Origin: Acuticoccus sp. MNP-M23
Lineage (GTDB): Bacteria; Pseudomonadota; Alphaproteobacteria; Rhizobiales; Amorphaceae
DNA: 35,767 bases
Assembly: GCF_031195445.1 (NCBI RefSeq)
Contig: NZ_CP133483.1
Coordinates: 1-35,767, forward strand
Reading direction: 5' to 3'
The notes under the pieces were generated by a model, which saw only the letters and a program-made list of their open reading frames with translations, had not been told where the DNA came from and made no database searches. This document shows, piece by piece, positions 932-29,154 of this stretch. The translations under genes were made by a program, and so were the position numbers. Numbering within the stretch: the first letter of the stretch is position 1; the number at the start of each line of letters is the position of its first letter.

Positions 932-3482
<2,551 letters not shown>

Positions 3483-3490
<8 letters not shown>

Positions 3491-5057
3491 CGTTCGATTC
3501 CAGAGGGCGAATGATACCTTCGATTAATGCGATCTCTTCGGCATCAAGATCGTATTTTTCGTACAGTTCCTCGTCAGACCAATTCCTATTCCATTCCTGA
3601 ACGGGCACCCATGTATATGTCGCGCGCGTGGCATGTTGGCTGACCTTTCGAAGCCAGACCATATACCTAAATATTCGGGTCCTAACGTAACTTTCCATAC
3701 TACTTGCTTCTTCTTCTGATCTTGCCGGAAGAAACAAATATGTCTGAGTGCATACGGATGGATTTGTAGCGCGCCTCAATGAACTAAGCACCGGCGTCGG
3801 TGATATTTGCGACTCAAAACCAGCTGCGGGTATAAGAACCTTCCAAGTATCAATCAAATTTTGGCTTTTATTTATATTATCCCTGCTAACCCACACAACT
3901 ATGCGCTTGGCTCCTTGATAAGCATACAGCGGGATCGATCCATCAAACTCAAACTTCTTATAATCAGAAAAATTACTTGTAAGACCAAATTCTTTATCTG
4001 CAGACAGCAATCCTACAATAGACTGTTCATTTTTAGACATTACCTTTTTAATTATACTTAGGGCTCTGCTATCTCGAACAAGTATATCGTATTCGTCTAG
4101 ACGCCTCTCGTCATAAATATCTTTCTGACCACTCCTTGACAAAATAGTCCTGCATAAGCCGGGGTTGTCCCGATCCCACAGGAAGAAACAAGCGCCACCC
4201 ATAAGCTTAACACCGGGAAATACATCTGTTGATGCTGGAAAATCGACGAGAGTTCGAATGCGGTCATCGGACAGCATCTCAGATCGAAATTCTGCTAGCC
4301 CCAAGCCTGCTGCCATCCAGCGAGATGGAATAACCATGCATAAATAGCGCGGTTCCAACCCTTTCGCCTGCTGTACGAAGTGCTGGTAAATGGGCTTATC
4401 GCGCGTCCCACCATCGCTAGCCAGCTGATATGGTGGGTTTCCGATGATCACGTCGAATTGCATGTCGTCTCCGAACATCCCGGCGATCCGAGCCCTGATG
4501 TCGTCAGTGTGGATAAAGGCATAGGCGTGGGTCTCGGCTTCCTCGCCGCGGTCGAGCGTCCCCTTGCTAGCACCGCAGTATTTGCACTTGTCGTTGACCC
4601 ACGTGTGCTCAGCACGCTCGAACCAAATGTTGCCGGCATCGTCCGAGAAGCCCTTGGCGATCGAGTGCTCACCAATGGCGTGCTTGGAGCAGTACAGGCT
4701 TCGGCGGGCGAGGAGGGCCGTAAGCTGCGTGATCCCGATCCCGAACACTTGCTTGGTCAGGATATGATCGACGCGCTGCTGCAGGTCGGGAATGTCATCC
4801 TTCAGCCCGTCCTGAAGTCGCTTCGTGATCTCGCGTAGGAACACCCCCGACTTGGTGAATGGGTCTAAAAATTTTACCGACTTACTCGCCCAGATGTTTG
4901 CGCCGCCATTCCCTGTGGCCCAGGCGTCCGCCAGTGTGTCGAGCATACGGTTGGCGAACTCCGGCGGCGTGAACACCTCGTCATTGGAGAGGTTGGCAAT
5001 GCAGGTCAGAACGTCCGGATTTCGCCCGTGCAGCATGAATCCTGCCTGCTCGGTCAC
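3483..5057 (-). CDS. N6-adenine DNA methyltransferase (Eco57I/type III-like)
   Basis: This 524-residue protein is the catalytic methyltransferase of the operon. VFTPPEFANRMLD (28-40) is motif X-like. FLDPFTKSGVFL (63-74) is a variant of SAM-binding motif I, with Lys-Ser where the usual sequence has Gly-Ser. FDVIIGNPPY (201-210) contains the catalytic NPPY motif IV of N6-adenine enzymes. A CKYC pair lies at 158-161. The part after about residue 240 is likely the target recognition region. By eye that 3' half of the gene (about 3500-4350) is clearly AT-richer than the 5' half, which suggests recombinational exchange of the specificity domain. It overlaps the upstream gene by 4 bp (ATGA) and the downstream gene by 8 bp. 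Methylation of adenine is known for the family; the recognition site is unknown. Confidence 0.85.
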
Positions 5058-5764
5058 GCAGCATCTCCGACGCCGCCACTGGCGAAGCCCGCTAAATCAC
5101 GCGCTGTCATCGGAGGATATGTTCTCATAGGCGTGAAAAGTTCATCCTTGCCAAGGTGCGCGAATAACGAGCCTTCGGCGCTGAAAGCTGCCATGCCGAT
5201 CAGGACGTCCAATCTGAAATCGCGCCGTTGAAACTTACCCCTTCCGAGGTAGCCCCATTCGACGAAGTGTATCGGCAACTCGTCTACGCCGCGCATCGTC
5301 ATGGCATCGCCATGGATTAGATTTAGCGAGATTACGAAGAACGCGGCCTGATACAGGTCATCGGCCGCGGTGATCCGCAGGTAGTTGGCGAACAATTCGA
5401 GCAGGTTCGCCCGGCATTCGGCGAGGTTATCTGGCAGCAGCTCGATGCCGTAGCAGCACATCAGCGCCAGGAGGGCGTAGTGCCGCTTCTCGAACTCGGA
5501 CCGGCCAAACTTCGCTTCGACGGCCGCCAGTTTGCGCTGCAAGACCGGGACGAGGAAATTCCCGCTCCCGCAGGCGGGCTCAAAGAAGCGGGCGTCAATG
5601 CGCTCGGCCTCTCCGCCGACCAGGTCAAGCATCTCTTCGACCAACCAGGAAGGGGTGAATACCTCACCGTGGTCGGCGACCCGCTTTCTTGATCTAATTA
5701 GCCTCTCTGTGGTCCGCCGGATGTGACCCTCAGTGGATTTGGGCTTTGGACTCTTCACCTTCAC
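5054..5764 (-). CDS. Methyltransferase-like protein with degenerate catalytic motif
   Basis: This 236-residue protein is the first gene of the restriction-modification operon. It has an N-6 methylase fold signature: GEVFTPSWLVEEMLD (33-47), canonical motif I FEPACGSGNFL (61-71), motif II-like YGIELLPDNLAECRANLLELF, and NLIHGDAM for motif III. The place where NPPY should follow reads LDVLIGMAAF (185-194), which aligns with FDVIIGNPPY of the next gene, so the catalytic Asn-Pro-Pro-Tyr is replaced by Met-Ala-Ala-Phe. It also ends soon after, without a target recognition region. It could bind SAM but is unlikely to methylate on its own. I infer a structural or regulatory partner of the 524-residue enzyme, the two forming a split methylase. 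The alternative is a decaying paralogue. It ends in a 4-bp overlap with the next gene. Confidence 0.75.
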   Translation of the reverse strand: MKVKSPKPKSTEGHIRRTTERLIRSRKRVADHGEVFTPSWLVEEMLDLVGGEAERIDARFFEPACGSGNFLVPVLQRKLAAVEAKFGRSEFEKRHYALLALMCCYGIELLPDNLAECRANLLELFANYLRITAADDLYQAAFFVISLNLIHGDAMTMRGVDELPIHFVEWGYLGRGKFQRRDFRLDVLIGMAAFSAEGSLFAHLGKDELFTPMRTYPPMTARDLAGFASGGVGDAA

Positions 5765-5918: not shown

Positions 5919-6908
5919 TCAAATCAGAATGCGCTCAACCTCGTCCAAACTGACCTCGTCGGCCCGCCGATCATAGAGCTGCGTGGTGCGGGTCGAGGCA
6001 TGGCTGGCCATCTGGGCCGCCTTCTCGAGCGCCCCATCGTTCTTGAGGTAGGCCGTGATGCCGGTAGCCCGGAACGTGTGACAGCCGATCAAGGTCTCGA
6101 TCTCGGCCTGACGCGCCCGCCGCCGGATCATCTGCCAGACGTTGGCCTGGGGCATCGGCCGGTCCGACAGGGTTTTGGTGTTCCGGTCGATGGTGCGGAA
6201 CACGTAGCCCTTGCGATCCTCCCACAGGGAGCACCCGTCCATGTAGTCGTGAATGTAGACTTCCAGCGTGTGGTGGCAGGGCACCTCGTGCCGCTTGCCG
6301 CCCTTTTCGTGGAGCCGCACCCAGAGCCGCCGGTTCTGGGTGTAAAGATCCTCGACCTTTAGCGACAGCGCCGCGCCGACGCGGGCGAACGAGTAGACCA
6401 TCAGCCCGATCAGCGCCCGGTCGCGAAGTCCCACCGGCTTCGACACGTCGATCGCATCCAGAAGCTGGCGCGCCTCGGCGGGATCGAGCACCGGCGTCTT
6501 GCCCCGGCGCACGATGTGGCGCGGGCCGCGCACCGATGAGGCCGGGTTGGTCGGCATCACCTGGCCGATCACCAGCCAGTCGAACAGGGCGCGGATGCCA
6601 GCGAGGCGCTGCTTCACGGTCGGGACGCTGTGGGTGGTGCCGAGTTCCTCGATCCAGGCGGCCACATGGATGGGCTGCACGGTCGCAAGCGACGTCACCC
6701 CTCGGATCTCGCACCAGGCCGAGAACTCCGCGGCGCTGCGCATGTAGGAGCGGCGCGTATTCGGGTTGCGGATGTGGACGGCGAAGAATTCGAGGAAGCG
6801 GGTTCGGGCCCGTTCATTGGCGGGGGCGAACAGGATCGGGAGCGCCGGGCCGGTATCGGGCGAGGGGATCGCGATGGTGGTGGTGGTGGTGGTGGGAACG
6901 GTCGTCAT
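5919..6908 (-). CDS. Tyrosine recombinase (integrase)
   Basis: This 329-residue protein is a complete tyrosine recombinase. Residues about 30-125 form the SAM-like core-binding domain (NTRRSYMRSAAEFSAWCEIRG). The catalytic domain follows, with Arg176 (SFARVGAAL), Lys202 (HEKGGKRHEV), His277 and Arg280 (CHTFRATG), His303 (ASHAST) and the nucleophile Tyr312 (TQLYDRR). The motif set is intact, so the enzyme should be active in strand exchange. The N-terminus contains a run of six threonines coded by a GGT repeat near 6875-6893, a slippage-prone tract outside the conserved fold. There is no good Shine-Dalgarno sequence before the start, so the true start may be further in. It lies between the restriction operon and the AT-rich cassette and may have carried either one in. 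Its att sites are not evident. Confidence 0.9.
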   Translation of the reverse strand: MTTVPTTTTTTIAIPSPDTGPALPILFAPANERARTRFLEFFAVHIRNPNTRRSYMRSAAEFSAWCEIRGVTSLATVQPIHVAAWIEELGTTHSVPTVKQRLAGIRALFDWLVIGQVMPTNPASSVRGPRHIVRRGKTPVLDPAEARQLLDAIDVSKPVGLRDRALIGLMVYSFARVGAALSLKVEDLYTQNRRLWVRLHEKGGKRHEVPCHHTLEVYIHDYMDGCSLWEDRKGYVFRTIDRNTKTLSDRPMPQANVWQMIRRRARQAEIETLIGCHTFRATGITAYLKNDGALEKAAQMASHASTRTTQLYDRRADEVSLDEVERILI

Positions 6909-7101: not shown

Positions 7102-8058
7102 TCAAAATGGCTTCGGAATCGGCGTAATGCGCTCCAGCTGAAGTGACATTTCAAGTGCACATCCACCTACCGACGCCCTAAACCTATAGCTTTCTGACGA
7201 GGATACATCCATCATTGCTGCGCCCGCTGTTACAAGTGGGATCAACTCATCTCCGACGAGGGATGCCTCTACCTCAAACGTCGCATAGTCGCTGAACGAT
7301 ACACCAATTCCACACTGTCTACCGGTGTTCAATAGACTTACAATCAGCTCGTCACCATTCGAAACTTGACCTCCCCATATTTTTAGTGCCGACCCCGCCC
7401 CTGCATTACTACTTAATACTCTTATATCTTTCTCCTCTTGACTCTTCTGCACGTCAATAAAGCGCGTCTCTAAAACTAGGCCGCCCATACATCCCGAGAT
7501 CGTATCCTCGTGGATAATTGCTGATACCATCCACTTCTGCACTATTAATTCCGGCTGTGGCCTAACAGAAATTGGCGATATCTCTGTCTGCGGATGGCAG
7601 GAGCAAAAGCCTGACTGCTTCTCGAACCCGCACTCAAGAAAAATATCGACGCGTCTATTCTCCTCCGCGCCCGGTTGGTTGGGGTCCGCTAACCGGCTTT
7701 CCCCCTCCCATTCGACGGATATCTCAGCTTCACGAAGAGATTTTAGCTCTTGAGCTACCGCTTGAGCTCGTCTTGCAGACAATTCGCGATTGTACCCCTC
7801 GGCGCCCACACTATCCGCATGGCCCACTACAACAACAGAACTATTTGTACTATTTAAGCGGCCAATTTCCGCCGCTATACGTCGAATTTCTTTGCGCGCT
7901 GTTGCATCAAGAAGCGCAGAATCAAAGACAAAAGCTATCGTGCCAATTTTCGCTCTTGACGAAAAATCCCTTCTAAATTCGCTCTTAGCCGCGGTCGTTA
8001 TGAAAACATGAGATATCACAATTAAAATAAATACTAATTGGCGCCGCATCTTTTTCAT
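7102..8058 (-). CDS. Exported OmpA-like protein with novel C-terminal domain
   Basis: The product is about 318 residues and is the last gene of the AT-rich cassette. It begins with a signal peptide (MKKMRRQLVFILIVISHVF, probable cleavage after TTAA), with no lipobox. Residues about 35-140 form an OmpA-C-like peptidoglycan-binding domain: IAFVFDSALLDATARKEI, VVVVGHADSVGAEGYNRELS with following RRAQAV, and a final ENRRVDI. The remaining roughly 180 residues (a CGFEKQSGFCSC cysteine cluster, then predicted beta strands) match nothing I recognise. The likely site is the periplasm or outer membrane, tethered to peptidoglycan. The first possible codon is TTG at 8061; I chose ATG at 8058. The gap to the preceding gene is only 12 bp, so the two are probably co-transcribed. 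Confidence 0.7.
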   Translation of the reverse strand: MKKMRRQLVFILIVISHVFITTAAKSEFRRDFSSRAKIGTIAFVFDSALLDATARKEIRRIAAEIGRLNSTNSSVVVVGHADSVGAEGYNRELSARRAQAVAQELKSLREAEISVEWEGESRLADPNQPGAEENRRVDIFLECGFEKQSGFCSCHPQTEISPISVRPQPELIVQKWMVSAIIHEDTISGCMGGLVLETRFIDVQKSQEEKDIRVLSSNAGAGSALKIWGGQVSNGDELIVSLLNTGRQCGIGVSFSDYATFEVEASLVGDELIPLVTAGAAMMDVSSSESYRFRASVGGCALEMSLQLERITPIPKPF

Positions 8059-8070
8059 CAAACTATGACA

Positions 8071-9558
8071 CTACCCCCGTAACCAATCGATACTCTGTGC
8101 TGCCTCCGCGAAATCAGGGGACATTTCAGCCACACGCTGAAGGCGCTCTAGCTCGAGAGGGAAATCGATATCGGGATCGGGATTTGGTGACGTCGGAAGT
8201 ACATCGCAGACGAATGCGATGATTTGCGCCCCGCGCGAGACGACCCCACTCGCGTCGCTCTGATAATCATGCGAAGCTGATGATTGACTGTGTGAGTAAT
8301 TGCCCCTTAAGGAAAACGGCCCCCAACCAACACGCGCGCTTGTGTTCAGCTCTGATCTGAAGGTTCGGTTTTCCTCGTGCTCCATGTTTGCATGAACTTT
8401 TACATTTCTTGCAACGATCATTGACGTTGGCAGTACCGGCATGAAGCCATCTAATGGATAATCCCCACTAGAGATGCTGCCATCTTGGTTCAACTCATCT
8501 ACGCCTTTCCAACCTCGACTACTGAAGATCCACCCGTTAAGCCATCCACGGAGAATTGGAAGTTGAATTAGATCAGCCTCTACACCGAACTGACTTATAT
8601 CCGATCGATTGTAGGTTTTGGTTTCCGAATAGTTCGCGCCGGCACCAAAGGACCACAGACCAAAGCCACCGCTGACGCCTCCACCCCAACTTGTTGATTC
8701 TTTACTTTCAAATGTGCTTATCTCGGATTCTGCAAATGAAAATTTCGTCCAGGCATCATCAAAAACTGAAGAAAGAATATTCGCGGGGTAAACGAACGTT
8801 GGGTAAAAGCCTGTTTGGAATTGATCCAGCCTACGCGCTCCGTCGAATTGCGCCCGCATCCTCTCATATAACGCAAATGAACTCCGGCCGGTAAAGTTTG
8901 CGATGATCCCGCGCGCTTGATTTACGTAATCACGATAACCTAACGATCCCCATTGAGAGTACGCATTCAATGCTTGAGCCTCGTAAATCGGCCCATTATT
9001 GGTCATTTCAAGAACGTTTTCCGGTGTTGGATTCGTTATTGCAGTGATTCTAGTGTTGTTTAGTATACGTAATCGCGCCGCATATTGCGAAAATAATCGG
9101 TCATACTGCTCAGATTGAACCGATGGACGAACTTCTTTCTTTTTTTCTAATGTGAATGGATCCGTAAATTCGACATCCTCTCTGACGAATTCTTCCGCTC
9201 TCTTAAGCATCTGCTCTTCCGCCTCTGAAAGAGAAGGGAGCGGGAGGCGTACCTTGCGGAGAGCTAAATTGTATATGTCCCAGGTTTTCGTCGAGGTCAG
9301 CTGCCATGTCCCTGTCGGGCTAGGCGTAGAATTCACAAACTGCGAAAAGAAAGAGGCTCGTCGAACTTGGTCAAGCGTCTCCATGTTGCCAAAATCGAGA
9401 TCATCTAAAGGAATACCCGGGTTACAAAATGATATGAAGGGCTTATGACTACTAGTAGAGAATTTCCTCTGCACTGGATTTGCGTTAACCTGGTCAGCAG
9501 CGGTTAAAATTTCATATATCTTCCCGATAAGACCGTTCATTGCCGATTGATTTGACAT
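8071..9558 (-). CDS. Large beta-rich protein of unknown function, possibly pore-forming
   Basis: This 495-residue protein has no signal peptide or obvious transmembrane helix. The N-terminal half is mostly helical and charged (SEAEEQMLKRAEEFVRED). From about residue 285 it becomes Ser/Thr/Gly-rich with alternating strands: ESTSWGGGVSGGFGLWSFG followed by AGANYSETKTYNRS, and later SARVGWGPFSLRGNYSHSQS. Such paired amphipathic hairpins recall membrane-inserting segments of pore-forming proteins, but this is only a pattern. Phrases such as LPTSMIVARNVKVHA and FVCDVLPTSPNPDPD seem to belong to a conserved uncharacterised bacterial family (recollection, unverified). AAGGA sits 7 bp before the ATG. 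It lies between two exported proteins with gaps of 30 and 12 bp, so the three products probably act together. Confidence 0.6.
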   Translation of the reverse strand: MSNQSAMNGLIGKIYEILTAADQVNANPVQRKFSTSSHKPFISFCNPGIPLDDLDFGNMETLDQVRRASFFSQFVNSTPSPTGTWQLTSTKTWDIYNLALRKVRLPLPSLSEAEEQMLKRAEEFVREDVEFTDPFTLEKKKEVRPSVQSEQYDRLFSQYAARLRILNNTRITAITNPTPENVLEMTNNGPIYEAQALNAYSQWGSLGYRDYVNQARGIIANFTGRSSFALYERMRAQFDGARRLDQFQTGFYPTFVYPANILSSVFDDAWTKFSFAESEISTFESKESTSWGGGVSGGFGLWSFGAGANYSETKTYNRSDISQFGVEADLIQLPILRGWLNGWIFSSRGWKGVDELNQDGSISSGDYPLDGFMPVLPTSMIVARNVKVHANMEHEENRTFRSELNTSARVGWGPFSLRGNYSHSQSSASHDYQSDASGVVSRGAQIIAFVCDVLPTSPNPDPDIDFPLELERLQRVAEMSPDFAEAAQSIDWLRG

Positions 9559-9588
9559 AACTAAATCCTTATTAATGGAAGGTATTTA

Positions 9589-10347
9589 CTATCGATGGAT
9601 AGAACAGCTTATAACAGCACGGTTTATGAGCGTAATAATCCGAAAATTTGCTGTCGAATTGGGTTGCGTCGAGCAAAAATCATTCGATATCTGCTCTAAT
9701 TTGGCCGACAAACATTTATTTTTCACATCCTCGATCGAGGATTCCGTGCATCCACTAACTTGATCAAGAGGTATTATCGTAGAGATAAACGTTACAGGTT
9801 GCAGCAAAACCTCAAATTTGCTTGATATCGATGAAATCGCGTCTGTTTGATTAGATACAACAGCAACTAGTCTGTCTATCTCGTCAGAGAGGCTGCTATT
9901 GAATGCGCCCACCTCCGCTAAAAGACGAATCATCTGATCGCGCTGATCAATAATCAACGACTCAATATCACGGATATTTTCGTGATTTGTATCGCTGCTC
10001 AACTTCACTTGTTCTGCAAATCTAGTCAGAATATCGCTCTGCCCTTCAAGCAAAACACGGAGACGGTCAATTTTAGATTGGGCCTCTCTGTCATCGACAG
10101 GAAAGTGCCCGCCTGAGGTGAGGGCGGACAAGTCTGAGGTGTCCTGATTTATAGAACTAATCTGGAGTATTAGGGCTCTCTCAATAGAATCGATGCTCGC
10201 TAGCAGCTCTTTTATGCCGTTTAGGCAATTCAATTGCGCCTCATCGGTCGATGGGAATTGTTTCCCACAGCCGTCATAGCTCTGCGAAAGTGCCGGTGAT
10301 GGAAGAAGGAAAAGTAATAGTAGTAGTATGCAGTGAAACTGTCTCAT
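9589..10347 (-). CDS. Secreted coiled-coil protein, unknown function
   Basis: The product is 252 residues from the ATG at 10347, which has GGAG five bases upstream; a TTG at 10371 is a weaker alternative. It starts with a classic signal peptide (MRQFHCILLLLLFLLPSPAL, then SQS), with no lipobox. The mature part has heptad-like hydrophobic spacing over about residues 45-180 (IDRLRVLLEGQSDILTRFAE; IRDIESLIIDQRDQMIRLL; IDRLVAVVSNQTDAISSIS), so a long coiled coil is likely. The C-terminus has cysteines (SGCTESS, NKCLS, DFCST, ISCSI) that could form disulphides. It is the first gene of the AT-rich cassette, and its promoter must lie in the gap upstream. No known family was recognised. Confidence 0.65.
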   Translation of the reverse strand: MRQFHCILLLLLFLLPSPALSQSYDGCGKQFPSTDEAQLNCLNGIKELLASIDSIERALILQISSINQDTSDLSALTSGGHFPVDDREAQSKIDRLRVLLEGQSDILTRFAEQVKLSSDTNHENIRDIESLIIDQRDQMIRLLAEVGAFNSSLSDEIDRLVAVVSNQTDAISSISSKFEVLLQPVTFISTIIPLDQVSGCTESSIEDVKNKCLSAKLEQISNDFCSTQPNSTANFRIITLINRAVISCSIHR

Positions 10348-10986
10348 GTGGCTCCGCCTGCGTTCTATCAAATCTTAAATCGGCGTTAATGGTTCTACGT
10401 TGCGGACGTGCTGTCAAGGTCGTTGAAGCACAGCCTAACACACGGTGCGTATCTTACGAGAATACCGAATGGATTCGCTTCGCTGTCGGAACGATCGCTT
10501 CAGAGTAGCAAGGTTGTGAGTGGGCGGTTCCATAACGTCCCGTTACGCGACCGACGTGTGTAACAGCAATTTAGTAATGTCTCACTTCAGCAAGTTAGAG
10601 AAGTCCCACCGGCGGTCCTTCCCTCATGGATTCGGTGTCGAGGTGGCGGATGACGGTGTTGAAGATGATCGATTTGGAGCCAGCCCGTTGCAATCTTAGG
10701 TAAGAGAGCGTGATATACGATGGCGGCAGTCTTCGGGACTGTGGGAGCGGTGCTGCAAGAAGGCGAGATCGACGCGATCGCCAAGATGAAACCGTCCAGC
10801 CTGATCGGTAACCCTAGCGGTTGCCGGTATTAGGTCCTTCCTTGCGAGGCCGGACGGTAGTGGGACCATCAGGTCATCCGGGCCAATGATCGGGATGACC
10901 AGAGGCGCCCGGCCTGCCGTGCGCTCCGAACGCGTTTCGGCGAAGATACCTATTCCATCTGAATAGCGTCGATCTGTGGGTTCAGG
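10348..10986. other. Gene-poor gap between AT-rich cassette and partition genes
   Basis: About 640 bp without a convincing gene. It should hold the promoter of the AT-rich cassette (minus strand). The composition changes from AT-rich to GC-rich between about 10500 and 10600, which marks one edge of the cassette. A short plus-strand frame at 10720-10833 (MAAVFGTVGAVLQEGEIDAI...) has coding-like composition but no recognised relative and may be a gene remnant. Confidence 0.4.
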
Positions 10987-16674: not shown

Positions 16675-16911
16675 ACGCCCTAGTGGCCGTTCGGACGAAC
16701 AGTCTGGGCTTTCATATCAATGATGCTGACCCCGGTGTCGCGCGGCGACCCACCATGATCGCGCAGGCTTCGAACCCCACGGCGGTTCGACCCGCCGTTG
16801 TGTACCGCGTCGCCGCGAGCGGAGTGTCGCTCGTGCCGGTCATCTTCGCCGGTCTCCAGACGCGTTCATAGCCCCGTCCTCACTGTCCTCCGCCCATCGA
16901 GAGCGCCTGTC

Positions 16912-19900
16912 ATGTCCGAACTCACCATCATCGCCCATCGCGGCACCAACCCCTATCCCGATGCATCCGCCGATGCGTATCGCCATGCGATCGACTGGGG
17001 CGCCGATGCCGTCGAAACCGACGCGCAGGTGACGGCGGACGGGATCGTCGTGCTGGCGCATGACACCGGCAACATCCCGAACATGACCTATGCGGATCTG
17101 CTCGCGGCAGATCCGGACCTCATCACCCTCAGCGAGCTGATCGGGATCATCGAAGAGAAATCGGCCGAGACGGGCCGTGTGATCGGGCTCAGCCTCGAGA
17201 TGAAGAACCCCGCCACCTACACGGCCGCGGGGATCGACATCGCGCAGGCAACGCTCGACGTCCTCGTCGCCAACGGCTTTACCGACGAGCGGGTGATGCT
17301 GAACTGCGGCGACGCGGCGACGCTGCAATATCTGAACGATACGCTGATGCCCGAGGCCGGTGTCGATATCTTCCTCGAGCAGACCTACAACGGAACGGAC
17401 GCGGAAGACCTCGCCCAGATCGCGACCTTCGCGGACGGGATCTCCGCCAGGATCAGCGGCCTCGATGCGGACAAGGTCGCCGAGGCCCAGAGCCTCGGCC
17501 TCAACGTCAATGCCTGGACGCACGACGGTCCGGGCGACGAGCTTCAGTCCCTGATCGAGATGGGCGTCGACGGCGTCTACACCAACAACACCCGCATCGC
17601 CCGTGCCTATGCCGAAGGGGACGTCGGTGTCAGCGTCGTTTACGGCGACGAGACGGCAGAGAGCGTCAGCGGGACCGACGGCGACAACATGATCTACGCC
17701 ATGGAGGGCAACGACGTCGTGCTCGCCGGCGCCGGTGACGACGTCGTCTACGGCGACGCTGGCGACGATACGCTGTCGGGCGGCTCTGGCGAGGACCGGC
17801 TCTTCGGCGGGGCCGGCGACGACGCCCTGTTCGGCGGCGAAGGCAGTGACATGCTGGCCGGCGGCCAGGGCAACGACGTCCTCAATACCGGTGGCTCGGA
17901 CAACACGGTCGTCTACGCTGCGGGCGACGGTATCGACGTTCTGAACGGCACGTCGACCGACACGCTGGTCCTCACCGACATCGCCTCGTCGGACGTCTCC
18001 GTGACGAACATCGGACCGAGCCTCGCGCTGGAATTTGCTGGCGGTGGCGCCGTGTTCATTGGCTCCGGCACCATCGGCAGCGTCGTGCTGGATGGCGGCG
18101 CCACGGTCTGGTCGGCGAGCGACCTTTCCGACATGGCGGACGGCCGTGTCTCCGACGCGGTTCTGGAGGTGGCGACGACCGCCGCGACCGGCCTTGCCGC
18201 AGCCACCGCGGCGGCATCAGCCGAACCGACGCCCAATCTCGTCCAGAACGGCAGCTTCGAATACACCGACAGCGCATCCGCCTACCGTGACTGGGGTCGC
18301 TCGGCGCTCAACGGCGAGATTCCGGGATGGGTGAACCTCAACTCGGGCCGGATCGAGCAGCACCAGGACACCAGCGCGCTCGGCCTTACGGCCAATGATG
18401 GCGCATTCTACGTCGATCTCGACGGCAACAGGAACAACGTCGCCCTTGCCCAGACCATCGAGGGCATGGAGACCGGCGCCACCTACGCGCTGGCCTTCGA
18501 CCTCAGCGACGGCGACACGTCGGACGACGAAGCCATCACCGTCACGTTCGGCGGCGAGGTGGTCTACGAGGGTGCACCGGCCGCGGCCGAGTGGGAGACG
18601 ATTTCGCTTGCCATCATAGGCGGCGCCGGCGACGGGTCCAATACGCTCGTCATCGAAGAGACCGGCGGCTCGCTCGACACCACCGGCATCTTCATCGACG
18701 ACGTCTCGGTGGTGAAGACTGCGGATGCTCCTGCCGGCAGCGCCGACGGCAACCTGATCGTCAACGGCAGCTTCGAAAACATCAACGGCACCTCGCACCG
18801 GTCCTGGGGCCGCTACGCGCCGGACGGCGAAATCGCCGGCTGGTCGAACGTCGATCCCAACCCGACCCAGCGCATCGAACTCCACGCCGACACGAGCGAC
18901 AACGGCGTCAGCGCCAGTGATGGCCAGTACTTCGTCGACATGGACGGCGACGGAAACAACCTCGAGATCGTCCAGACGGTCGAAGGGGTGGAGGCCGGCA
19001 GCACCTATACGCTGAGCTTCGATGTCGCCGATATCGATCCCGATGCCGACGATGATGCCATCGAGGTGAGCTGGGGCGGCGAGGTGGTCTACACCGGCAC
19101 GCCGGGCGAGGCCTGGGAGACCATCAGGCTCGAGGTTGTCGGCGGCGCGGGCGACGGGACCGATACGCTGGCGTTCCGCCATCTGGCGACGGATCTCAAC
19201 GGCGACGGCATCGCGCTCGACAACGTTTCGCTGATGGCCGGGCGCATCGAGGATCAGCCGGGCGACGGCGGTGATCCCGATGGCGGCGAGGAGACCCCCG
19301 GCGACGGCGACCCCGATGCGGACGCCCCCTTCCTCCTGATCTCGCACCGGGGCACCAACCCCTATGCGGACCACTCGGAGGCCTCGCACAGCCATGCGCT
19401 CGACTGGGGCGGCGACATGGCCGAGTTCGACCTGCAGATGACGGCGGACGGCGTCCTCGTGATCGCGCACGACACCGGCACCATTCCGTCGACCACCTAT
19501 GTCGATCTCATTGCCTCGAACCCTGACATCATGACCTTCGAGGAGGGTCTCGACCTCGTTCTCGCCAAGCAGGTGGAGACGGGCCGCACGTTCCAGATCA
19601 GCGCCGAGATCAAGAACCCCACCTCCTATGCCGACAACGGCCTGGCGTTCGCGCAGCAGCTGGTGGACACGCTGGAGGCGAAGGGGTTCGACGACCCGGC
19701 CCAGGTCAGCATCTCGTCCTTCAATTCGGCCATCGTCCGCACGCTCCTCGACGATATCCTGCCCGAGGCCGGGACCGCCTATAACGTGGACTATGTCGGC
19801 TACGGTCTCAGCGACAGCGAGCTGTCGACGGTCGCCGGATGGGGCGTCAAGAGCGTTTCTCTCAACGCCAGCTACCTGAACGCGGCCATGGTCGAGGCGG

Positions 19901-22143
19901 CTCACGACGCCGGCCTCAAGGTCTACGCCTGGACTTCGAGCGGGCCGGGCGAGAACCTGCAGCCGCTGATCGATATGGGCGTCGACGGCGTCTATGACGA
20001 CAACACCCGCGTCGCGCGGGAATACATCGACGGCGTCGCGGGCCTGGCGACCCTTTATGGCAGCACTGACGGCACGATCGTCAGCGGTACGGATGGCGAC
20101 AACGTCGTCTATGCCCTTCAGGGCGATGACACGGTGCTCGGCGGTGCGGGCGACGACATCCTCTACGGGGACGGCGGAAACGACGTGCTCGTCGCGGGCT
20201 TGGGCGACGACCTTCTCGTCGGCGGCGCGGGCGACGACGTGCTTTTCGGCGGCGAAGGGGCCGACACGCTGGACGGCGGCGGCGGCAACGACGTTGTGGT
20301 GGCCGGCAGCACCGACACGGTCCACTTCGGCGCCGGAGACGGGATTGATCTCCTCACCGCCGAGGACGGCGTGACGGTCGTCTTCGATGGCATCGCAGCG
20401 GCGGACATCACGGTCACCACCCTGGACGGAGCGCTGGTGATCGAGACCGCCGACGGTGCCGCGCTTATCGTCTCCGACGGGACCGGGGCGAGCTTCCGCT
20501 TCGCGGACGAGACAACGCTCACGACATCGGACCTCGCCGGCCTCGCCAGCGGTCCGGCATCCCAGGCAATGGAGACGGCGCGGGCCACCCTCGAGGCGGC
20601 AGCGGCCGACGCCGCGCCGGCCGCTGGGCTGGAGCCGACACCGAACCTCATCGTCAACGGCAGCTTCGAGAATATCGACGGCACGTCATCGCGCGCCTGG
20701 GGGCGGTACAGCCCGGACGGCACCATGCTCGGCTGGCAGAACCTTGCCTCAGGCCGCGTCGAACAGCATCAGGACACGGTTGGCGGCGTCTCCGCGTCGG
20801 ACGGTGCGTACTGGACCGATCTCGATGGCTGGCTCAACAACGTCGAGCTGGCGCAGACCGTCGAAGGGGTCGAAACCGGGGTCAACTACGTCCTGTCGTT
20901 CGACCTCGCCGACACCGACCTTGCGGACGACGAGACGCTTACGGTCATGTGGGGCGATGCGGTCGTCTACGACGGCAAGCCCAACAGCGCCGAGTGGTCG
21001 ACGATCACGGTCGACCTCGTCGGCGGCTCCGGCAACGGCTCCAACCAGCTCGTCTTCGTCCAAGGTGGCGGTTCGCTCGACGGCGCCGGCCTCGCGCTCG
21101 ACAACGTGTCCCTCGTCAAGGCCCGTTCCGAGGCGCCAGGCGGCAGCGACGGCGACACCCTTACCGGCACTGATGGGGCCGATAAGCTCCGTGGCGGTGC
21201 CGGGAACGATACGCTCCTTGGCGGCGCAGGCGACGATGTCCTGCGGGGCGAAGCGGGCAGCGATGTGCTCGTGGGGGATGACGGGAATGACATTCTGATC
21301 GGCGGCGACGGCGAGGACCAGCTCCTCGGCGGAGCCGGAGCCGATACGCTGAAGGGTGATGCCGGGCAAGACATGCTCAGCGGCGGCATTGGCGACGATG
21401 TGCTCTTGGGGGGTGACGGGAATGACATTCTGTCCGGTGGCGCCGGCGGGGACCGTCTGATCGGCGGGTCCGGGGCCGATACGCTTGGCGGCGATGCCGG
21501 AGACGACACGCTCCGCGGCGGCACGGGCGACGACATGCTCGCCGGGGACGACGGAAATGACGTTCTGGCCGGCGGCGCCGGCGATGACCTGCTGATCGGC
21601 GGCGCCGGGGCCGATACGCTCAGAGGTCACACTGGGGACGACACGCTCCGTGGCGGCATGGGCGACGACCTGGTCGCCGGTGGCGACGGGAATGACGTTT
21701 TGTCCGGCGGGGCCGGCGGTGACATCCTGATCGGCGCCGCCGACGCCGATACAATCAGCGGTGATGACGGGCACGACACGCTGCGTGGCGGCGAAGGTGA
21801 CGACATGCTGCACGGCGACAGCGGCAACGACAAGCTCTTCGGCGACGACGGCGACGACTTCCTCTTCGGTGGCGACGGCAATGACCGCCTGACGGGCGGC
21901 GGCGGCGGCGACATCCTGAAGGGCGACGCGGGCGCGGACACGTTCGTGTTCTCCGGAGAGTTCGGGGCCGATACCATCCTGGACTTCGAGTTCGGGGTCG
22001 ACAGGATCGTCCTTCGCGGGATCAGCGAGGGCGACGTTTCGATTACGGACGGCCATGCCGGTGCGACCATCACGGTCGGCGACGACAACGTCATCACGGT
22101 CCTTCAGGGCGATATCGGCCTCTCCGACCTGATCTTCGTCTGA
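16912..22143 (+). CDS. Secreted RTX protein with two GDPD domains and three jelly-roll modules
   Basis: The product is about 1743 residues from the ATG at 16912, where homology to GDPD enzymes begins immediately; an upstream frame to 16798 looks non-coding. Glycerophosphodiester phosphodiesterase domain 1 covers residues 1-240, with His9-Arg10-Gly11, Glu35/Asp37 and His50-Asp51. An RTX block follows at 262-327, then two beta-sandwich modules (NLVQNGSFEY at about 442, NLIVNGSFEN at about 614). An acidic Gly/Asp/Pro linker leads to GDPD domain 2 (about 807-1040), with SHRGTNPY, AEFD and IAHD. A second RTX block, a third module (NLIVNGSFENIDGT, about 1244) and a long RTX array (about 1412-1680, GGAGDD-type nonapeptides) follow. 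The end (DTFVFSGEFGADTILDFEFG ... LSDLIFV) is typical of type I secretion signals. It should hydrolyse glycerophosphodiesters outside the cell in a calcium-stabilised form. No type I exporter gene lies in the window. Confidence 0.9.
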   Translation: MSELTIIAHRGTNPYPDASADAYRHAIDWGADAVETDAQVTADGIVVLAHDTGNIPNMTYADLLAADPDLITLSELIGIIEEKSAETGRVIGLSLEMKNPATYTAAGIDIAQATLDVLVANGFTDERVMLNCGDAATLQYLNDTLMPEAGVDIFLEQTYNGTDAEDLAQIATFADGISARISGLDADKVAEAQSLGLNVNAWTHDGPGDELQSLIEMGVDGVYTNNTRIARAYAEGDVGVSVVYGDETAESVSGTDGDNMIYAMEGNDVVLAGAGDDVVYGDAGDDTLSGGSGEDRLFGGAGDDALFGGEGSDMLAGGQGNDVLNTGGSDNTVVYAAGDGIDVLNGTSTDTLVLTDIASSDVSVTNIGPSLALEFAGGGAVFIGSGTIGSVVLDGGATVWSASDLSDMADGRVSDAVLEVATTAATGLAAATAAASAEPTPNLVQNGSFEYTDSASAYRDWGRSALNGEIPGWVNLNSGRIEQHQDTSALGLTANDGAFYVDLDGNRNNVALAQTIEGMETGATYALAFDLSDGDTSDDEAITVTFGGEVVYEGAPAAAEWETISLAIIGGAGDGSNTLVIEETGGSLDTTGIFIDDVSVVKTADAPAGSADGNLIVNGSFENINGTSHRSWGRYAPDGEIAGWSNVDPNPTQRIELHADTSDNGVSASDGQYFVDMDGDGNNLEIVQTVEGVEAGSTYTLSFDVADIDPDADDDAIEVSWGGEVVYTGTPGEAWETIRLEVVGGAGDGTDTLAFRHLATDLNGDGIALDNVSLMAGRIEDQPGDGGDPDGGEETPGDGDPDADAPFLLISHRGTNPYADHSEASHSHALDWGGDMAEFDLQMTADGVLVIAHDTGTIPSTTYVDLIASNPDIMTFEEGLDLVLAKQVETGRTFQISAEIKNPTSYADNGLAFAQQLVDTLEAKGFDDPAQVSISSFNSAIVRTLLDDILPEAGTAYNVDYVGYGLSDSELSTVAGWGVKSVSLNASYLNAAMVEAAHDAGLKVYAWTSSGPGENLQPLIDMGVDGVYDDNTRVAREYIDGVAGLATLYGSTDGTIVSGTDGDNVVYALQGDDTVLGGAGDDILYGDGGNDVLVAGLGDDLLVGGAGDDVLFGGEGADTLDGGGGNDVVVAGSTDTVHFGAGDGIDLLTAEDGVTVVFDGIAAADITVTTLDGALVIETADGAALIVSDGTGASFRFADETTLTTSDLAGLASGPASQAMETARATLEAAAADAAPAAGLEPTPNLIVNGSFENIDGTSSRAWGRYSPDGTMLGWQNLASGRVEQHQDTVGGVSASDGAYWTDLDGWLNNVELAQTVEGVETGVNYVLSFDLADTDLADDETLTVMWGDAVVYDGKPNSAEWSTITVDLVGGSGNGSNQLVFVQGGGSLDGAGLALDNVSLVKARSEAPGGSDGDTLTGTDGADKLRGGAGNDTLLGGAGDDVLRGEAGSDVLVGDDGNDILIGGDGEDQLLGGAGADTLKGDAGQDMLSGGIGDDVLLGGDGNDILSGGAGGDRLIGGSGADTLGGDAGDDTLRGGTGDDMLAGDDGNDVLAGGAGDDLLIGGAGADTLRGHTGDDTLRGGMGDDLVAGGDGNDVLSGGAGGDILIGAADADTISGDDGHDTLRGGEGDDMLHGDSGNDKLFGDDGDDFLFGGDGNDRLTGGGGGDILKGDAGADTFVFSGEFGADTILDFEFGVDRIVLRGISEGDVSITDGHAGATITVGDDNVITVLQGDIGLSDLIFV

Positions 22144-27849: not shown

Positions 27850-28707
27850 TCAGCCGATGTTCGCGTTGGCTCGTGCTGCCGACAGGATGCGGCTGACGGT
27901 GGCTTGCGACACATTGTAGAGCCGGGCCATCTGGGCGGCGCTCCTGCGTCCACTCTTGACGTTCTCGACCACGTCGGCGTGCTTACCGTCAAGAATCGCA
28001 AAAACGTTCGATGCTTCGGCGGCGTAGGCATCATCGCCAAAGCGCGTGGAGAGCTGACGGTCGAGCCGGTGCGGTGCACCGCTCCAGTGGGTGAGCTCAT
28101 GCAAGAGCGTCCCGTACCAGGCTTCGGTCGGGTTTGATGTCGCCGTACCGGTAAACCGCTCTCGGTCCGGCATTTGGATACGATCCTCGGCCGGCCGGTA
28201 GAAGGCGCGCTCGCCGCCAACGCTCACCATGGCACCGGCTGCAGCGGTAAAGGCTTCGGCGGCCTCTACAGGCTCGATCCGGTCCTCGGTCGGCACTTCA
28301 TCGTCGACGGTAAAACCCTCGACCTGCGCAGCATTGAAGACACGGCTGGCGCGCGCAAACAGCACGGTTTCGGTCTCGCTCGGATCATCCTCACGCGGCC
28401 GCTCGAGTTCCTTGTAAAACACGATGACGGAGGACTTTTCGCCCTTCTTCACCTGGGCGCCATGCTCCTGCCACTGCTTATAGGTTCCCCACATGCCATG
28501 GGCGTAGTCGTTGGCCGCGGCCGCCACCCACAGCGCCAGCACGTTGATGCCGCGATAGCCCTTTCCGGATGCGATGTTCTGCGGCCGAGTGATGGCATGT
28601 GCCGAGCGATGCCAGGGCATTTGCCAGTTGTCCGCGCCGGCCTCAATGGCGGTGACAATCTGATCGGTGATGTGTTGATGAACGTCGAAGCGGTCGGTCT
28701 TTCCCAT
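27850..28707 (-). CDS. ArdC-like antirestriction protein fused to a resolvase HTH tail
   Basis: The product is 285 residues from the ATG at 28707 (AAGGAG nearby); the frame is open to 28995 but the extra residues look non-coding. Residues 1-125 match the ArdC N-terminal ssDNA-binding domain (WQMPWHRSAHAITRPQNIAS, YRGINVLALW). Residues about 150-230 are the zincin-like metallopeptidase part with HELTHWSGAPHRLDR (203-217). Full-length ArdC proteins continue after RFGDDAYA with a further helical region. Here that part is missing and the sequence changes to a serine-recombinase C-terminal HTH: GKHADVVENVKSGRRSAAQM followed by ARLYNVSQATVSRILSA. So the gene is a fusion, probably created by a recombination event. 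It would bind plasmid ssDNA and inhibit restriction; activity without the normal C-terminus is uncertain. Confidence 0.8.
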   Translation of the reverse strand: MGKTDRFDVHQHITDQIVTAIEAGADNWQMPWHRSAHAITRPQNIASGKGYRGINVLALWVAAAANDYAHGMWGTYKQWQEHGAQVKKGEKSSVIVFYKELERPREDDPSETETVLFARASRVFNAAQVEGFTVDDEVPTEDRIEPVEAAEAFTAAAGAMVSVGGERAFYRPAEDRIQMPDRERFTGTATSNPTEAWYGTLLHELTHWSGAPHRLDRQLSTRFGDDAYAAEASNVFAILDGKHADVVENVKSGRRSAAQMARLYNVSQATVSRILSAARANANIG

Positions 28708-29154
28708 GATGTTGATCTCCTTGCCTTGGGGTTGGGGTGCAGCTGCTGCTGCACCTCTGCCCGTCGGCGAGACCGGGGATCGGAGGGGGGAAGCGAAATC
28801 GTGCCGAGTGGTGCGGGCGCACAAGCGCGAAGCGCGCGGAGCCTCGGTCGGTGCTATTTCGCTTCGGGGAGCAAGGGGCGGCGCACCTTGGCCCTCCCCA
28901 CTGCCGAGTGAGATGCCGGCCGAAGGCCGTCCAACCCTGTTCAGCGGCGCGATCAGCGAGGCGCATCGAGACAGATCCGCCCTCGATCGACGCACCCGCG
29001 TTAGGGACAGCCACCCGGATGGGCCGAGACCCGTGCAGCGGGGCTCGGTGAGGCCCGAAGGGTCGAATAGGGCCCGACGGCAAAGCCGGAACGCCCATCA
29101 ATATTGACAATCTTTGCCATTTTATGCCATTCTTGAATGATGGAGGACGTGCTC
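28708..29154. other. Leader region of ardC and upstream of the ParDE-like operon
   Basis: About 450 bp without a gene. It holds the divergent promoters of the ArdC-like gene and the toxin-antitoxin operon. A GTGCAG/CTGCAC hairpin lies at about 28737-28754. Frames reading through here (extension of the ArdC frame to 28995) are Arg/Pro/Gly-rich and look non-coding. The composition change at about 29100 (ATATTGACAATC) may be the start of the TA promoter, with TTGACA at 29103-29108. Confidence 0.35.

Follow-up and report, generated by a model that had tools for sequence, protein, structure and literature searches.

Bacterial gasdermins act in phage defence (PMC9612521), and the CDC-like (CDCL) proteins include two-component members, in which a related pair occurs with one protein lacking a part, the short form being without the fourth domain (PMC11952106). 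Here we describe a cassette of three genes, encoding the proteins P0003, P0002 and P0001, on the contig NZ_CP133483.1 of Acuticoccus sp. MNP-M23, and compare it with these pore formers as well as with OmpA-like proteins and the Zorya system. The window, i.e. the stretch that was analysed, is the entire contig of 35,767 bases, which is one (C4) of the seven contigs of a 5.16 Mb genome. The cassette is confirmed and looks foreign, and its main protein, P0002, belongs by sequence comparison to a protein family that could be matched to no name; the firmest new result is that profile comparison identifies the C-terminal half of P0002 as an internal duplication. The three genes are arranged as follows:

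9589..10347, minus strand: P0003, 252 amino acids, with a signal-peptide-like start and, by reading, a putative coiled coil (open reading frame 9589-10371, ATG at 10347)
8071..9558, minus strand: P0002, 495 amino acids, without a signal peptide, its N-terminal half predicted as helical and its C-terminal half as duplicated and of beta type (from the open reading frame and from sequence and model analyses)
7102..8058, minus strand: P0001, 318 amino acids, OmpA-like, with a signal-peptide-like start (open reading frame 7102-8061, the second codon being an ATG at 8058)

P0002 resembles the gasdermins and the MACPF/CDC proteins in having two hairpin-like units per protein, and chains of these groups are the best Foldseek neighbours of its two structure models, both unreliable. 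It differs from them in that it has no sequence-profile match and no established fold, in that its two units are recognisable as repeats of one another, and in that no protease was matched in the trio. With the long and short CDCL proteins the likeness is that of a related protein pair with one member missing a part; however, the short CDCL lacks the fourth domain and not a hairpin, and the window contains no second copy of P0002. By analogy, bacterial gasdermins and CDC-like pairs may be regarded as a precedent for such a design, but not as proof for P0002. P0001, in turn, is like the OmpA-like proteins (PF00691), its domain scoring above the cut-off and aligning with solved domains, but it has an extra C-terminal part of ~170 residues. 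P0001 also matches ZorB of Zorya in PADLOC (E 3e-6) over its OmpA/MotB-like part, although this match covers the shared domain only; its trio neighbours P0002 and P0003 match none of the PADLOC 2.0 families (known anti-phage systems) at E<=0.1, and the ZorA motor partner was not matched among the six proteins scanned, namely the trio and three restriction-modification genes.

Internal duplication in P0002

The following parts can be distinguished in P0002:

8839..9285, minus strand: residues 92-240, predicted to be mostly helical (model; a block with a predicted local distance difference test score, pLDDT, of 72-79 at residues ~111-210)
8596..8718, minus strand: hairpin-like unit 1, residues 281-321, Gly/Ser-rich (alternation within that of shuffles, p 0.2-0.3)
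8236..8373, minus strand: hairpin-like unit 2, residues 396-441, kin of unit 1 (alternation above that of shuffles)

Conserved motifs run through an alignment of twelve relatives, and the eight intact ones have the strand prediction and the order of motifs in common, each unit following the plan of a strand, a Gly/Ser-rich turn region and another strand. When the blocks 262-340 and 376-456 of these eight were compared with each other, they aligned with an hhalign score of 21.6, which was reached by none of 100 column shuffles (maximum 9.7), and we therefore take the C-terminal half of P0002 to have arisen by internal duplication.

A family that looks rare and patchy

Searched alone, P0002 matched Pfam at E 0.13 at best and, within the limits applied, nothing in NCBIfam, PADLOC or PHROGs; among PDB sequences it found nothing better than E 0.48. 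The best PDB hit of the family profile (E 0.014) lay in the helical part and was to a telomere-binding domain. An earlier first-pass annotation of this DNA had recognised no function in P0002, and none of the Pfam, NCBIfam and PDB searches placed it by sequence in a known enzymatic family. No publication on the family was found by accession or locus tag or among the topic-search titles listed. P0002 is similar to its relatives over most of its length, as tblastn matches span 80-97% of it and a Rhizobium relative retrieves P0002 at E 5e-27; P0002 was itself a row of one family model, and its score there is no test of membership.

The distribution of the family, which was assessed by samples or short patterns, looks rare and patchy, so far mainly in rhizobia and partly on plasmids. 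Relatives occur in 2 of 72,556 plasmids and in 4 of 297 genomes of the order, the source genome included. A five-row profile of the family matched 2 of 398 genomes of the phylum (again with the source genome) and 6 of 346 of the family to which genome G209 belongs, and a twelve-row profile matched 1 of 249 genomes; these four samples overlap, and G209, which belongs to the same order as the source genome, is counted in all four tallies. A pattern scan of the genome collection returned no locus from P0002 alone and two, in Rhizobium tropici and Mesorhizobium, from a three-row alignment. There was no match in 50,697 phage records, and none was confirmed in viral contigs, where the scans used short peptide patterns that can miss distant kin.

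Two relatives of 805 amino acids (L030, 6214-8631, and L031, 6604-9021) have a much longer N-terminal part, and a protein with CxxCH motifs, which we take to be haem-binding, adjoins the former. Rhodobacter, Cupriavidus and Klebsiella proteins were tried as distant kin and reached ~10 bits each, above 300 of 300 shuffles; the Klebsiella link is doubtful because the reversed protein scores 10.2 bits, as high as the real one. This doubtful relative, on a plasmid of Klebsiella michiganensis (L034, 4134-5534), adjoins a TRL-like protein.

Foreign composition and a plasmid-like contig

That the three genes are co-oriented and close holds, as all are encoded on the minus strand and separated by 30 bp (9559-9588) and 12 bp (8059-8070). 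Their composition is atypical as well, with a GC content of 0.466 versus 0.602 for the window, and with GC at third codon positions of 0.45-0.47 versus 0.57-0.89 in six other measured genes of the contig. The statement in the first-pass annotation that the trio is AT-richer than everything around it is nonetheless too strong, because the segment 3501-4500, within a methylase gene, has a GC content of 0.459. Promoter and terminator scans gave chance level (five found versus 5.1 expected, and two versus 3.4, respectively).

The contig encodes an RPA-type plasmid initiator and a ParA/VirC1 ATPase and is plasmid-like in this respect; its ParA region has 77% DNA identity to a plasmid of Acuticoccus, Hyphomicrobiales. 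No exact overlap of 12-399 bases that would indicate a circular molecule was found between its ends. Foreign composition and the patchy occurrence of P0002 relatives both support the horizontal transfer that had been suggested earlier, and horizontally acquired plasmid cargo is the best explanation of the trio. An integrase, described before as a neighbour of the trio, is indeed there, and could be the agent of its arrival:

5919..6908, minus strand: tyrosine integrase (PF00589, by Pfam), adjoining the trio

The two copies of an exact 14-nucleotide direct repeat (6425-6438 and 10600-10613) enclose the trio together with part of the gene for the integrase; by our own estimate ~0.06 such repeats are expected by chance, and the repeat was not used as evidence.

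Partners of P0002 and of its relatives

The two flanking proteins were expected to be exported and P0002 not, which a simple hydropathy scan bore out: signal-peptide-like starts are strong in P0003 and P0001 and missing from P0002. P0003 gave no match at E 0.01 among the 72,556 plasmid records. It was matched in 5 of 150 genomes of the order, its own included, the other four matches lying within residues 102-219 only and belonging to proteins of 549-631 amino acids with a membrane-anchor-like start. A weak NCBIfam match of P0003 to chorismate mutase reached 19 bits, below the cut-off of 120. The third protein is OmpA-like, as described in the first-pass annotation, and P0001 can be divided as follows:

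7654..7932, minus strand: OmpA domain PF00691, residues 44-136 (56.4 bits versus a gathering cut-off of 27.2)
7105..7611, minus strand: extra C-terminal part of ~170 residues, without relatives in the sequence searches

Conserved Asp and Arg residues of OmpA domains bind peptidoglycan. The stretch GHaDsvG...yNrelSarRA of P0001 aligns with solved OmpA domains, GHADSVG and LSARRA being present in both alignments shown, and the domain is expected from its sequence to bind peptidoglycan. P0001 was matched in 90 of 101 genomes of the order (its own included), and among the matches listed, besides P0001 itself, the aligned part lies within residues 21-186 and is mostly the OmpA domain. No Pfam domain other than PF00691 was matched in P0001, and its C-terminal part had no plasmid match at E 0.1. 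Neither P0003 nor this extra part could be accepted as kin of the P0002 family, with hhalign probabilities of 0.2% each and no relation in the profile-versus-shuffle test either.

To compare the surroundings of the relatives, 15 loci with a member or possible member of the family were examined, the window included. At five of these, a significantly related second gene lies beside an intact one (S. meliloti, with two such genes, two Rhizobium loci, G752 and G799); three of the five form one close clade, and the five-row profile held a copy of the second type. By inspection, the second copy lacks hairpin unit 1, or has another stretch in its place, at the four loci where this copy is unbroken, the copy of G799 being broken. 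In the Rhizobium-type second copies (L003, 7204-8661; L015, 9412-10872; L027, 6007-7476), a Cys/Gly/Pro-rich stretch containing CCC(C) stands in the place of unit 1, and a conserved protein of 242 amino acids opens this type of cassette (L003, 5020-5748; L015, 7207-7935; L027, 8939-9667), for which no Pfam match was found in the case of L003. In a tree of 13 proteins, P0002 sat on a long branch and in no supported set; the second copies, which may yet share one origin, were not grouped in the best tree, and their label showed no clear clustering (a value as low came from 82 of 500 shuffles).

Five more loci (Mesorhizobium, G972, G080, G115 and Cupriavidus) have a co-directed second gene downstream that is not significantly related, significance having been assessed in all but G115. 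As candidate kin, the Mesorhizobium second genes 363 and 306 were each reached by 1 of 300 shuffles, and gene 330 gave no score; G972 396 was reached by 1 of 300 and the third gene of G972 by 39 of 300, and G080 355 by 6 of 300. Cupriavidus 410 was reached by none of 300, but at 0.2 bits and E 15. At the remaining five loci, the window among them, no second gene was recognised.

The relatives of P0002 in Mesorhizobium, S. meliloti and G972 have a signal-peptide-like start, unlike P0002, and the listed members of the Mesorhizobium and S. meliloti cassettes bear such starts as well. Possible defence genes were seen at two of these loci, with TIR-domain proteins near that of S. meliloti and a pair near that of Mesorhizobium which is presumably a type III restriction pair. 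The trio itself was not found elsewhere in the collections searched. As a conserved module it did not hold up, since P0002 relatives have other partners and, in the samples searched, no relatives were found for P0003 and the extra part of P0001. The first-pass annotation had named, as a sign against its reading, homologues that occur singly and with no common neighbourhood; the picture is halfway, with no common trio and yet a related second gene at a third of the loci.

A possible membrane-inserting assembly and its alternatives

As the likeliest of the readings considered, though with rather low confidence, we propose that P0002 is a membrane-inserting oligomer with two exported partners. 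Its N-terminal half, predicted as helical, would serve to hold the assembly or to regulate it, and the C-terminal hairpin-like units, two per subunit, would open into the membrane, where hairpins of adjacent subunits could join into a beta-barrel pore, an arrangement comparable to the one in gasdermins and MACPF/CDC proteins. As P0002 has no signal-peptide-like start, it would in this strain act from inside, working from the cytosol on its own inner membrane, or it might reach a neighbour after lysis, so that such a pore could serve either self-killing defence or attack on neighbours. P0003 and P0001 would sit in the periplasm, P0001 being anchored to peptidoglycan through the OmpA domain, and might position the assembly beneath the peptidoglycan, act as its gate, or shield the producing cell.

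The pore-forming assembly proposed by the first-pass annotation is plausible as a prediction, and what speaks for it is suggestive only, namely Foldseek ranks of unreliable models. Gasdermin, MACPF or CDC chains account for 10 of the first ten PDB chains with the domain model and for 9 of the first ten with the full-length model; the scores are non-significant and uncontrolled, and several of the chains are the same protein repeated. The hairpin arrangement was set down ahead of these searches, and the placement of the units between core strands comes from an unreliable model of P0002. An amphipathic pattern is weakly shown for unit 2 only: in six relatives, its alternation of hydrophobic and polar residues gave p 0.004 (mean) and 0.06 (maximum) in within-region shuffles, and in P0002 alone p 0.012 and 0.026, all p values being uncorrected for the number of regions tried. 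A separate scan favoured 302-334 and 382-432, uncorrected for the number of windows, and of the 25 best windows in P0002 alone, just 6 fell at 385-422.

Several results weigh against the proposed pore. The AlphaFold models of the domain and of the full-length protein have pLDDT values of 41 and 38, and unit 1 alternates no better than shuffles, neither in the relatives (p 0.30 mean, 0.21 maximum) nor in P0002 alone (p 0.50 and 0.32). The whole domain is likewise no better than shuffles (p 0.16 and 0.20). Of the Gly/Ser-rich amphipathic hairpins first described, the conserved, duplicated Gly/Ser-rich unit and the alternation at 396-441 thus stand, and the alternation at 281-321 does not. Furthermore, no gasdermin, MACPF or CDC family of Pfam matched P0002 or the other 11 family members at E<=1, and none of their PDB chains was among the 11 found with the family profile; we do not classify P0002 as a gasdermin or MACPF protein.

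A bolder version, which we regard as improbable, would have P0002 found an undescribed lineage of bacterial giant-pore proteins, with a membrane unit that goes back to a single hairpin module duplicated in tandem. Several of the relatives would work beside a copy that lacks an intact first hairpin and caps, targets or restrains them, and on this plasmid the OmpA-anchored protein and the second exported protein would have taken over that role. If P0002 makes pores, bacterial pore formers would gain a family for which there is no current profile, and a detectable hairpin duplication would inform the evolution of two-hairpin pores; if not, there is still an unannotated, patchily spread gene set in rhizobia and their kin. 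A protein without an export signal beside two exported partners on a plasmid is a testable case.

Among the alternatives, an envelope or matrix assembly without a pore survives best, although we consider it doubtful. P0002 and its relatives would stack via their Gly/Ser-rich units into a fibre or layer, with P0001 and P0003 anchoring it to the cell wall, which fits the signal-peptide-like starts of two of the three trio products, the OmpA domain of one, the similar starts in the Mesorhizobium and S. meliloti cassettes and the weak alternation of unit 1; however, P0002 itself has no signal peptide, and the Foldseek ranks lean weakly to pore proteins. A released weapon, by which P0002 or its relatives would harm neighbours and P0001 and P0003 would act as immunity or carrier proteins protecting the producer, is unlikely. 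While the plasmid-like location, the foreign composition and the differing partners among relatives would suit changing immunity or delivery genes, no secretion system, delivery domain, toxin or immunity profile of Pfam, NCBIfam or PADLOC was matched in the trio, where the second genes of the relatives have no counterpart either. Finally, that three unrelated cargo genes happen to lie side by side, with P0002 acting alone and perhaps by an unrecognised fold, is slightly less likely still, for although the trio was not found elsewhere and P0003 and the P0001 C-terminus had no relatives where searched, the short gaps, the single strand and the shared atypical composition of all three argue against it.

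Other genes of the contig

The restriction operon reported beside the trio is real. This split restriction-modification operon (932-5764) encodes a ResIII helicase-like protein, an Eco57I-type methylase and a short second methylase piece, and parts of its first two genes match one PADLOC type IIG model. Further along, a protein of 1781 amino acids (16798-22143) combines a glycerophosphodiester phosphodiesterase domain, DUF642, a carbohydrate-binding domain and 20 RTX calcium-binding stretches. An ArdC-type anti-restriction protein is encoded at 27850-28995, on the same contig as the restriction operon.
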